Of a DNA stretch of 64,000 nt, positions 24,315 to 28,263 are shown piece after piece. The notes under the pieces are model-generated. The model was not told the DNA's origin. It did no database searches and was given only the letters and a program-made list of their open reading frames with translations. Numbering within the stretch: the stretch's first letter is position 1; each line of letters opens with the position of its first letter. The DNA comes from Algoriphagus iocasae (GTDB lineage: Bacteria > Bacteroidota > Bacteroidia > Cytophagales > Cyclobacteriaceae): the NCBI RefSeq assembly GCF_014206875.1, contig NZ_JACIJO010000004.1, positions 124,001 through 188,000 on the forward strand, given 5' to 3'. The position numbers and the translations under genes are program-made.

Positions 24315-24407
24315 AACGAAATAGCCAGAGTCTTTAAAAAATGTAAATGAACACCCCGGTTTATTGCCAACAAATTGATTTACAATAGGATTATAATTTT
24401 TATTTAA

Positions 24408-24481
24408 AATTAATCTAAATAAGCTTTGCGAATAAAAAATCCACTCCTACTTTTGTCTTATCAATAATTAATCTAAATAAG
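24408..24481 (+). repeat. 16-bp direct repeats bracketing the siderophore receptor promoter
   Basis: AATTAATCTAAATAAG occurs exactly twice, at 24408-24423 and 24466-24481. The first ends next to the -33 element; the second lies between the expected transcription start and the ATG at 24484. The first copy sits in a 9-1-9 imperfect palindrome (24402-24420, 7 of 9 pairs), the geometry of a Fur box; the second copy matches less well (5 of 9). Iron-dependent repression is an inference from this and from the gene controlled. Confidence 0.6.
24425..24455 (+). promoter_or_regulatory. Promoter of the siderophore receptor operon
   Basis: TTTG at 24425-24428 (-33), exactly 19 bases of spacer, then TACTTTTG at 24448-24455 (-7), a full match to the Bacteroidota consensus TTG-N19-TAnnTTTG. 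Transcription should begin near 24460. Confidence 0.8.
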
Positions 24482-24483
24482 AA

Positions 24484-26928
24484 ATGAGAGGAGTTTTTAC
24501 CTGTTTTTCCTTTGTCCTGTTCATCTGCATCAACGCTTTTGGACAATCAAACTTTGAATTAAAGGGCAAAATCACAGACATATCTGGAGAACCATTGATC
24601 GGAGCAAGTATCCAAGTGGCAGGTACGTCATTTGGAACAATAACAGATCTAAATGGTAACTATCAATTGAACTTTGAGAATACTGGCGACTATCAGTTAA
24701 AACTTTCATTCATTGGTTTTTCCAGCATCCAGGAGAAAGTCACTATCTCCAAACGTTCTATGGTTAGGAATTACCAAATGGAGGAAGAAACTTCCAACCT
24801 ACAGGAAGTAGAAATCATTGGAAGGAAAGAAGAAGGCTATAAAAACACTTCCACTTTTATCGGAAGTAAGACCCAAACAAACATCAAGGATCTTCCACAA
24901 TCTGTTTCTTATGTGACAAAGGAGTTGATCCTAGATCAAGGCTTGATGCGTGTAGGAGAAACTGTCAAAAACTTCTCCGGAGTCAGCCAATTCACTTTTT
25001 ATGATGACATCACGATTCGTGGCTTTAGAATTAACGGCGGCAGCAATACACAACTAGTAAATGGTATGCGATCCACTTCTGGATTCTGGAAGCAGCCATT
25101 GATCAATTACTTGGAAAGAGTTGAAGTTTTGAAAGGTCCATCATCCGCACTATTTGGAAATGCCAGTCCCGGAGGAGTAGTAAATAGAGTGACTAAAAAG
25201 CCTTTGGACATCAACAGAAATAGCCTGAGTTTTTCAATAGGCAGCTTTAACAATTTCAGAGCACTGGCAGATTTTACCGGTCCGGTAAATGAATCCAAAA
25301 CTTTACTTTACAGATTGAATTTGGGCTATGAAGATGCCCAAAACTTTAGAGACCTTCAGTTTGACAAAAACGTTGTCGTCGCTCCATCACTTTCATTCAT
25401 CCCTTCGGATAAAACGCGAATTAACTTGGATTTGGTTTTCAATAATTCCAGTAGCCGACTTGACCGAGGGCAATCTACCTTTGAAAATGATCTTTACTCT
25501 ACTCCTATCACTAGGTCGCTCAATACCGCAAATGACTATTTAAAGGAGCAGACATATACGATCACTACTTCCTTAAACCATCAGATCAGTAAGAATATCA
25601 GCTTCAATGCTTCTTACATGAAAACCGGTTACAACGAAGATCTTACCGAGCATCGCTCTTCAAACAGCTATGCAGTAGATGGAGAAGGAAACAATATCGG
25701 CACCATGGTAGGACGTCAGGTTTTCATCCGAAAAAGATCAAGATTTGTCGATAACCTTTCTGCTTATTTCAACATCCAAAAATCTACTGGCAAGTTCACT
25801 CATAAGTTAGTGGTTGGATATGATTACGCACAGGAAACTTTACCAGCTGGAGGTTCTCAATTGACAGCAAATGGTTACAGAAATGCTTCAAATACTGGAT
25901 CAATCGCAAAATATAACCCTGCAAACAAAGAAGCTTATTTGTTAGATGTCAATGGAAATCCAGTACCAAATGTGACTCATTTTGACTTGAAAAATCCGAT
26001 TGGATCCCAGACCATGCAGGACATGTCCAAGTACTTCTATGCCCAGCGTAGTTATGACCCGACCTTGTATCATTTGAATGGATTCTATGTCCAAGACCAA
26101 ATCACTTTTGGAAAACTTGAAGCGATGATTGGTTTAAGATATGAGGTATACACTGACTTTGAGAATTACAAAAAAGAGAACGAGCAAAAGGTAAATCAAA
26201 ACGCGCTTCTTCCAAGACTTGGTTTAGTATTCAAGGCTAATGAAAATGTAAACTTCTACGGTACTTATGTAGAGGGTTATAATCCACAGACAGCATCATC
26301 TATCTCCAATCCAAATGCAGGAGGTCCTTTTGATCCTTTGATCAGCTCAATGGTGGAGTTCGGCATGAAGTCCGATTGGTTTAACAAGCGTTTGGAATTG
26401 ACAACTGGCATTTATCAAATCGACCAAAAGAATACTCTTTACCAAGTACCCGGAGAAACTGATTTACTTCAGCAGATTGGAAAAGAAACTGCGAAAGGAA
26501 TTGAGTTTGATGTGACTGGAAGAATTCTGATGAACTGGAGTGTGATGGCTTCTTATGCCTACAATGTGGCTGAAATCACTGAAAGTCCAAATGAAATTGA
26601 TTTGGGAAGACAAAAGCCAAATGCTCCGAAACACCAAGGAAACCTTTGGACAAAATATGAATTTGATCAAGGCAAAATATCCGGTTTGGGAATAGGTCTT
26701 GGCGCAAATTTCGTCACAGAAAGAAACCTTTCCCTTAACGACACCCAAACAATTCCTGGTTATGCTGTTTCCAACGCAGCTTTGTATTACACCACAGGGA
26801 ATGTTCGCCTCCAAATAAACATCAACAACCTGACTGATAAAACCCATTGGGTTGGCGGCTATGATTATCTGAGATTATTCCCAGGAGCACCAAGAAATCT
26901 TCTAGGCACGGTCACTTTCAATTTCTAA
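24484..26928 (+). CDS. TonB-dependent siderophore receptor
   Basis: Outer-membrane receptor of 814 aa importing ferric siderophores with TonB energy. A signal peptide (1-20, NAFGQ) is followed by a carboxypeptidase-regulatory-like domain (about 24-105: GKITDISGEPLIGASIQV), typical of Bacteroidota. The plug domain (about 120-235) shows LPQSVSYVTKELI, TIRGFRINGG and RVEVLKGPSSALFG, the FhuA/FpvA-type siderophore signature, then a 22-strand barrel ending in VTFNF. The PepSY membrane gene follows after 12 bases. The promoter is flanked by direct repeats that look like operators. The siderophore is unknown, and no biosynthesis gene is in the window. Confidence 0.95.
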   Translation: MRGVFTCFSFVLFICINAFGQSNFELKGKITDISGEPLIGASIQVAGTSFGTITDLNGNYQLNFENTGDYQLKLSFIGFSSIQEKVTISKRSMVRNYQMEEETSNLQEVEIIGRKEEGYKNTSTFIGSKTQTNIKDLPQSVSYVTKELILDQGLMRVGETVKNFSGVSQFTFYDDITIRGFRINGGSNTQLVNGMRSTSGFWKQPLINYLERVEVLKGPSSALFGNASPGGVVNRVTKKPLDINRNSLSFSIGSFNNFRALADFTGPVNESKTLLYRLNLGYEDAQNFRDLQFDKNVVVAPSLSFIPSDKTRINLDLVFNNSSSRLDRGQSTFENDLYSTPITRSLNTANDYLKEQTYTITTSLNHQISKNISFNASYMKTGYNEDLTEHRSSNSYAVDGEGNNIGTMVGRQVFIRKRSRFVDNLSAYFNIQKSTGKFTHKLVVGYDYAQETLPAGGSQLTANGYRNASNTGSIAKYNPANKEAYLLDVNGNPVPNVTHFDLKNPIGSQTMQDMSKYFYAQRSYDPTLYHLNGFYVQDQITFGKLEAMIGLRYEVYTDFENYKKENEQKVNQNALLPRLGLVFKANENVNFYGTYVEGYNPQTASSISNPNAGGPFDPLISSMVEFGMKSDWFNKRLELTTGIYQIDQKNTLYQVPGETDLLQQIGKETAKGIEFDVTGRILMNWSVMASYAYNVAEITESPNEIDLGRQKPNAPKHQGNLWTKYEFDQGKISGLGIGLGANFVTERNLSLNDTQTIPGYAVSNAALYYTTGNVRLQININNLTDKTHWVGGYDYLRLFPGAPRNLLGTVTFNF

Positions 26929-26940
26929 TCCCCAGCTTAA

Positions 26941-28263
26941 GTGGCGAAAAAATCTAAAAATATCCTCTGGAAAATCCATCAATGGGTGGGCCTTTATGTA
27001 GGAATAGTCATTGCAGCGCTCAGTTTAACTGGCGCTGCAGCTGTTTTCATTCCTGAAATTGACCACTTCCTCGAGCGGAAATACGAGTTATCGGAGGTAG
27101 GAGATACTTACATCCCAATGGACTCAATTATTGCCGAAGTCCAACTGAGAAATCCTGACTTTAGAATTTTGGGAGCGATGCCTCCAGAATCAAAAACTTC
27201 TCCTTTGATAATGGATATTTTTAAAGAAGATGGAGCCACCTCTTCTCAGCGTGTTCAAATTTTCATTGATCCGTTTACAGGGGAAATATTGGGTCAAAAG
27301 TCCCATACCGATAGCCTTTCAAATTTCCTGAGACAGGTTCATGTTCGTCTAATGGATTCTTGGTGGGGAAGGCAAATTGTCGGTCTTGCCGGAATCGGAC
27401 TTTGCCTGCTTTGCATCTCAGGCTTGTTGATTTACGGTAAATTCATGAAGAATCAGGTTTTCGGAGCCATCCGAAAAAAGAACCTTAGAATCTTGATGGC
27501 CGATTGGCACAAAATGGTCGGAATTGCTGCCCTTCTTTTCAATTTAATGATTGGTGCCACCGGAGCATGGCTGGGCTTGCAACCAGTTTTGATCAAAGCT
27601 TTTGACATCAAAGCACCAAACACATTCAAAAGGTCCGAGAAAATTCTATCTCCGGAAGAAGATATTCTTCAACCCTATGCTTATTGGGAATCTCTGGAAG
27701 TTGCAAAAAATCAAATCCCTGATTTCAAAATCACACAAGTCATTCCATCAAAGGATGGAACAAATACTTTGGAGCTTAAAGGTGACGCCGGACATCTGCC
27801 GTTTGAGCCTCATATTTCCAAAGTAGTTTTGGACAAATCAACCCTTCAGGTATTGGATGTTTACGACATACGAGACCAAGAATTTTCGGACAAGTTCTAT
27901 TACATGCAGGAAGGTTTACACTTCGGAAGATTTGGGGGCATTTTACTCAAAATCGCCTATTCCTTATTGGGATTGACCACTGGCATCTTATCAATTACTG
28001 GTTTTCTTATCTACATGCTTCGCTCCAAAAAAACCGAAAAGGAGAAGAGCCAAGTCAAAAAAACCATCTTCATTTATTCCGTCGGAGTTATTCTTTTGAT
28101 CGTTCTCCTTGGAGCAGTAACAGTCTTCGTAAGTTATGCGATTGCCACGATGATCGTGACTCCGATGGTTTATATTTTCCTATCCCTATTTATCCCCTTG
28201 CAAATCATGTGGCACATCAGAAAAAAGCGTGAAATCAATAAGCCTGAATATGAAAAAGTATAA
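26941..28263 (+). CDS. PepSY-associated transmembrane protein (PiuB/iron-regulated type)
   Basis: Inner-membrane protein of 440 aa with a GTG start directly after the receptor gene. It opens with WKIHQWVGLYVGIVIAALSLTG (the PepSY-TM family's first helix; residues about 11-33), has PepSY-like periplasmic segments (about 50-125 and 240-320), further helices near 145-165, 190-215, 340-360 and 380-430, and conserved histidines (DWHKMVG, HFGRFGG). Proteins of this kind accompany siderophore receptors and are thought to reduce or release iron from ferric siderophores at the inner membrane; this role is family knowledge, not shown here. Ends by overlapping the next small gene by 14 bases. Confidence 0.9.
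   Translation: MAKKSKNILWKIHQWVGLYVGIVIAALSLTGAAAVFIPEIDHFLERKYELSEVGDTYIPMDSIIAEVQLRNPDFRILGAMPPESKTSPLIMDIFKEDGATSSQRVQIFIDPFTGEILGQKSHTDSLSNFLRQVHVRLMDSWWGRQIVGLAGIGLCLLCISGLLIYGKFMKNQVFGAIRKKNLRILMADWHKMVGIAALLFNLMIGATGAWLGLQPVLIKAFDIKAPNTFKRSEKILSPEEDILQPYAYWESLEVAKNQIPDFKITQVIPSKDGTNTLELKGDAGHLPFEPHISKVVLDKSTLQVLDVYDIRDQEFSDKFYYMQEGLHFGRFGGILLKIAYSLLGLTTGILSITGFLIYMLRSKKTEKEKSQVKKTIFIYSVGVILLIVLLGAVTVFVSYAIATMIVTPMVYIFLSLFIPLQIMWHIRKKREINKPEYEKV

Follow-up and report, generated by a model that had tools for sequence, protein, structure and literature searches.

A conserved pair of boxes at a siderophore-receptor promoter of Algoriphagus iocasae: very probably a Fur operator, known in kind and two-box in layout throughout related promoters of the genus

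Iron-uptake genes are commonly under the control of Fur-type metal-dependent repressors. In Bacillus subtilis, the boxes for Fur, PerR and Zur are 7-1-7 odd-centred inverted repeats, and the siderophore genes of enterobacteria carry multi-box Fur operators. Among the Bacteroidota, iron homeostasis was called "largely unknown" in a 2022 paper (PMC9478572), which describes the MerR-like MliR as an activator of iron homeostasis in a member of the phylum other than Algoriphagus. The closest described system is that of Riemerella anatipestifer, for which the Fur box ATTTAGAATTATTCTAAAT was predicted and EMSA was reported on four promoters (PMC5609570). For ATTTAGAATTATCCTAAAT, upstream of R. anatipestifer rhuB, EMSA has likewise been reported, along with repression that depends on iron and on Fur (PMC10986502), and derepression is described both on deletion of fur and on mutation of the Fur box (PMC11967795). 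The R. anatipestifer box has also been printed as an E. coli-type sequence (PMC7976709), at odds with the 19-mer, for which PMC5609570 was the sole full-text match in the open-licence literature. Fur function varies within the phylum, since a Porphyromonas homologue is reported not to bind iron, nor to recognize the box of E. coli (PMC6613475). No description of a Fur box for Algoriphagus was found in the open-licence literature, where most matches were judged by their listing.

The window analysed here is a 64,000-nucleotide stretch of A. iocasae contig NZ_JACIJO010000004.1. On its forward strand, to which all coordinates below refer, it carries a gene for a TonB-dependent siderophore receptor (24484..26928; PF00593, PF07715 and PF13715; TIGR01783 at 301.6 bits against a cut-off of 223.5), the closest named homologue of which is from A. 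antarcticus (87% identity). A gene for a PepSY-associated membrane protein follows (26941..28263; PF03929, 193.9 bits), and because the intergenic gap is 12 bp the two genes probably form one operon. Two Fur-type boxes flank the −7 element of the receptor promoter, one on each side and near the start codon. Box 1, ATTTAAAATTAATCTAAAT (24402..24420), lies 82 bp upstream of the ATG at 24484, and the weaker box 2, ATCAATAATTAATCTAAAT (24460..24478), lies 24 bp upstream and ends five bases ahead of it. Between them are TTTG, a −33-like element (24425..24428), and, 19 bp further on, the −7 element TACTTTTG (24448..24455), which follows the TAnnTTTG consensus placed at −12 to −5 in Flavobacterium psychrophilum (PMC9723704). 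Given that placement, transcription is predicted to start at about 24460, so that box 1 would occupy −58 to −40, and box 2 the first 19 transcribed positions (+1 to +19). A sigma-70 scan returned two weak matches, one on each strand, with 1.5 expected, and was uninformative here.

Box 1 differs by a single base from the box listed for R. anatipestifer hmuR (Table 5, PMC5609570). The two systems share a 19-bp odd-centred consensus placed upstream of outer-membrane iron receptors, about 100 bp or less from the ATG, in a phylum with −33/−7 promoters. They differ in that Table 5 of PMC5609570 lists one box per gene, whereas the Algoriphagus promoter has two predicted boxes, flanking the core promoter.

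An earlier note on this DNA had pointed to the 16-mer AATTAATCTAAATAAG at 24408-24423 and 24466-24481, and both copies are exact. Each copy takes in the right half of a box and some additional bases, four for copy 1 (box 1) and three for copy 2 (box 2). The same note had placed the upstream copy within a 9-1-9 near-palindrome, which is found at 24402-24420 with 7/9 pairs complementary. No further exact copy was present in the window or in the 5.43-Mb genome. Apart from this pair, no 16-mer of the window recurs exactly at a distance of up to 100 bp, and 0/20 dinucleotide shuffles of the window contained such a repeat. Against this, near-matches to the 16-mer with up to three mismatches were not enriched in the window (5 versus a mean of 2.34 expected; 12/100 shuffles attained 5). 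With up to two mismatches they occurred at 18 places in the genome versus 9 for the reversed control, many of them intragenic. As its exact copies are confined to the receptor promoter, the 16-mer was set aside as the unit and replaced by a 19-bp odd-centred near-palindrome with the consensus ATTTAGAATnATTCTAAAT, which emerged from the surroundings of 16-mer near-matches ahead of TonB receptors and a PepSY gene. It comprises the half-sites TTTAGA and TCTAAA with a spacer of 5. The B. subtilis 7-1-7 boxes are likewise odd-centred inverted repeats, comparable to the Algoriphagus core TTAGAATnATTCTAA, but the bases of their half-sites are unlike those of the Algoriphagus box. Box 1 fits the consensus at 16 of the 18 fixed positions and box 2 at 14. 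When the 200-bp promoter was subjected to 5,000 dinucleotide shuffles, two attained a score of 16, that of the best box, and one contained two sites of at least 14/18. Box 2 is weak by score and, with four mismatches, was missed by the scan allowing up to three; it rests on its conservation.

Across the A. iocasae genome, 21 sites were found with up to three mismatches, versus 12 for the reversed pattern. Ten of these, among them all five sites with up to two mismatches, precede iron, heme, cytochrome or Fe-S genes; the other 11 are intragenic or near genes without an evident iron link. The ten comprise box 1 of the window receptor, two sites 26 bp apart ahead of a second siderophore receptor (C6:93100), two sites 22 bp apart ahead of a third boxed TonB receptor, on C3, and one each ahead of a PepSY gene, feoA of feoAB, hemA, a cytochrome c gene and a gene for a 2Fe-2S protein, the last so named because it resembles the L177 protein. 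The earlier note had proposed searching for the 16-mer at other iron genes; because the exact 16-mer is unique to the receptor promoter, that search taken literally would have misled, while the 19-bp box does precede TonB receptors, PepSY, feoAB and hemA. Paired boxes are carried by both receptors above the TIGR01783 cut-off, and no site scoring at least 14 was found at the 24 other scored TonB loci, from a control of 30 fetched loci out of 47 TIGR01783 matches in which the gene start lay outside the locus in four of the 30 and one of the 24 had just 39 bp upstream. The third boxed TonB receptor (L147) is absent among the TIGR01783 matches listed. Of four strong PepSY genes, that of the window and that on C6 follow boxed receptors, and a third (C1:700581) has a box of its own, scoring 15/18 and 97 bp upstream; the fourth full-length gene (C3:88646) has no site scoring at least 13. 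In the promoters of feoA and of the second receptor, the nearer box lies just upstream of the −7 element.

The search was extended to 40 genomes of the genus, including that of the window, in which 125 sites with up to two mismatches were found versus 13 for the reversed pattern, counts that are not independent over related genomes. At least one such site occurred in 38/40 genomes. Iron, heme, cytochrome or Fe-S neighbours were read at 27 of the 30 loci fetched, labels that we assigned by reading the starts of the neighbouring proteins, representatives of which were searched with Pfam. They were hemA (8/30), cytochrome c (7/30; L158, L159, L163, L169, L171, L172 and L178), DUF4856 proteins (3/30; L151, L153 and L175), PepSY (3/30), SdhC-like proteins (2/30, no Pfam match) and one each of feoAB, fur, a 2Fe-2S protein and a TonB receptor; three loci showed no evident link (L154, L168 and L173). 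These sites provide a predicted iron box and draft Fur regulon for the genus, covering siderophore receptors, PepSY, feoAB, hemA, a cytochrome c, a 2Fe-2S protein and probably fur. The candidate iron box for the lineage suggested in the earlier note thus precedes iron genes in the genome and the genus, although the unit is the 19-bp palindrome and not the 16-mer, and it is not new: an iron box already known from Flavobacteriales is, by its sequence, extended to Algoriphagus. Separately, the boxed cytochrome c gene encodes a multidomain protein, both in A. iocasae (L022, G000:C5:163668) and at the seven genus loci. The DUF4856 genes downstream of Fur-type boxes are lipoprotein-like, two of them (L151 and L153) having a second box-like site nearby, and their products are candidates for an iron-related role.

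In orthologous promoters, both boxes of the window receptor were kept in 15 of 17 cases, at a spacing of 58 to 61 bp. The 15 consist of nine close promoters, the window's included, and six at 48 to 50% identity; the boxes of L181 equal those of L047, and the two are perhaps the same species. The remaining two homologues (L188 and L189, 39 to 40% identity) had no site scoring at least 14. Over the 15 promoters, box 1 scored 13 to 17 and box 2 13 to 15, the end of box 1 lay 27 to 29 bp from the −7 element, and the −7 element lay 3 to 5 bp from the start of box 2. The −7 element read TAnnTTTG in 13/15 and TATTTTTA in 2/15. The promoter TTTG-N19-TACTTTTG described between the two copies in the earlier note reads as it said and its −7 element is conserved, but TTTG at a spacer of 19 was found in the window genome only among the 15 promoters, and at 21 in two of the distant clade. 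The expectation of conservation in the earlier note was borne out for the two boxes and not for the exact 16-bp identity, which was likewise found in the window genome only, relatives keeping just a core near AATCTAAATAA. Among eight close species, invariant columns made up 17/23 of box 1, 7/8 of the −7 element and 16/21 of box 2, and outside these elements 1/25 of the spacer and 3/116 of the upstream sequence. As in enterobacterial operators, there are several boxes per promoter; different from those is that the Algoriphagus boxes are split by the core promoter, 58 to 61 bp apart. The promoters of the second receptor (n = 13) keep their own box pair at 24 to 26 bp. In L045 and L180 the leader between box 2 and the ATG is 76 to 91 bp longer than that of the window, and alike in both species.

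In a wider set of 62 orthologues, all from named genomes, 50 had a site scoring at least 14, where shuffles predict 1.8 and the reversed consensus gave 3; distances in this set were counted from where the protein match begins, which in some proteins is as many as 25 residues in. By our own group labels, such sites were found in Algoriphagus (6/6), Sphingobacterium (6/6), Flavobacteriaceae (32/33), Hymenobacter (2/2) and Pedobacter (4/4), and in none of the Chitinophaga group (0/7) or the other and MAG entries (0/4). In Sphingobacterium, Pedobacter and Hymenobacter, too, orthologous receptors are preceded by the box reported from Flavobacteriales. Two sites were present in 5/6 Algoriphagus orthologues, 2/33 Flavobacteriaceae and 0/23 of the remainder.

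We put the probability that the receptor promoter is a two-box Fur operator at roughly 85%. The earlier note had inferred a two-site operator and pointed to Fur-type metalloregulators, and the match to the R. anatipestifer Fur box, the other iron genes with boxes and the orthologous promoters all argue for it. We infer that Fur is the binder, that it represses and that both boxes contribute. When iron is plentiful, metal-loaded Fur dimers would sit on box 1, just ahead of the −33 region, and on box 2, at the start site, and RNA polymerase would be unable to load or to leave; the receptor gene and the downstream PepSY gene would then be off. As iron falls, Fur would shed its metal, and transcription would begin from the promoter that the boxes enclose. 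A more specific form of this mechanism, which we hold only tentatively, is that the promoter is clamped by one Fur dimer just upstream of its core and a second, weaker one over transcribed bases 1 to 19. Both would keep a near-fixed register to the −7 element, and polymerase would be stopped at loading as well as at escape. The response to iron might then be two-stage, or steeper than at the single-box promoters of the regulon.

Box 2 might not be part of the operator. The phylum is described as lacking Shine-Dalgarno sequences (PMC6847099), and a box that scores only 14/18 and ends five bases from the ATG could be an A+U-rich, unstructured leader aiding the start of translation, with box 1 as the only operator. 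This is unlikely, since box 2 keeps its score of 14/18 in L045 and L180, where the ATG is 115 and 100 bp away, and since it holds its register with the −7 element (3 to 5 bp) and not with the ATG. The distant clade, moreover, has a box 2 of 14 to 15/18 with a left half closer to the consensus. If both boxes are operators, the recurrence of the pair in 15/17 related promoters could also mean that two Fur dimers interact over the promoter, either through a DNA loop or cooperatively through being in phase; the earlier note had raised cooperative binding or looping. The spacing argues against this: it is 58, 59, 60 or 61 bp, corresponding to about 5.5 to 5.8 turns at 10.5 bp per turn and thus to no whole number, and the second receptor's promoters space their boxes at 24 to 26 bp. 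With a varying spacing and non-integral turns, such an interaction is unsupported and highly improbable. That the direct repeat arose by chance or by a mutational event in an AT-rich promoter would agree with exact identity in the window genome only; shuffles, however, almost never yield such a repeat, and both sites are kept in relatives in which they are non-identical. Because both sites are conserved, chance stands solely for the last bases of identity, and as an account of the repeat itself it is scarcely credible. The two-box Fur operator remains our preferred reading.

The genome offers candidate binders. It has six PF01475 matches, two of them strong, L034 (G000:C5:5966-6400) and L035 (G000:C2:773120-773590). 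The best solved-structure match of both is Fur, and neither reached the NCBIfam Fur equivalog cut-offs. Both types have E at the position where B. subtilis PerR has D, which we take to mark the Fur-like E-type and not the PerR D-type. Their recognition helices, the position of which we assigned on our own assumption, differ by one residue. The L034 type was found in 40/40 genomes, at 46 to 50% identity to L035 and with an internal stop in one, and the L035 type in 37/40 at no less than 75% identity. Across the genus the two Fur-type proteins coexist, with recognition helices that are all but identical. Ahead of the L035-type gene, a box-like site scoring 12 to 16/18 lies at −91 to −97 in 27/30 promoters, a set in which the L267 row starts out of frame. 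By score, 8/30 promoters reached at least 14 versus 1 for the reversed consensus, and 26 versus 10 reached at least 13; since score alone is weak, it is the fixed place of the site that carries the argument for autoregulation of the L035 type. The L034 gene had no box in its short upstream gap, and its single match, scoring 13, lies 222 bp upstream. Because a box-like site precedes its own gene, the L035 type appears somewhat likelier than the L034 type to bind the boxes.

A repressor of the DtxR/MntR family could occupy the boxes in place of Fur. The genome has four PF02742 matches, and two of its DtxR-family genes (L040 and L041) are preceded by palindromes with a similar half-site, TTTAGA or TTAGA. 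These palindromes are even-centred with a spacer of 4, though, and the window boxes have a spacer of 5. In genus scans with equal numbers of fixed bases and mismatches, the spacer-5 pattern was enriched (236 versus 131) and the spacer-4 pattern not clearly so (101 versus 79), and the experiments reported in PMC5609570 tie a spacer-5 box to Fur. A DtxR-family binder was put aside on spacer length and is quite improbable. Comparison of the two palindromes suggests that one base of spacing, 4 versus 5, may separate two metal regulons. The palindromes of the DtxR-family genes lie at −54 and −131 from the gene start for L040 (G000:C3:1388730) and at −68 for L041.
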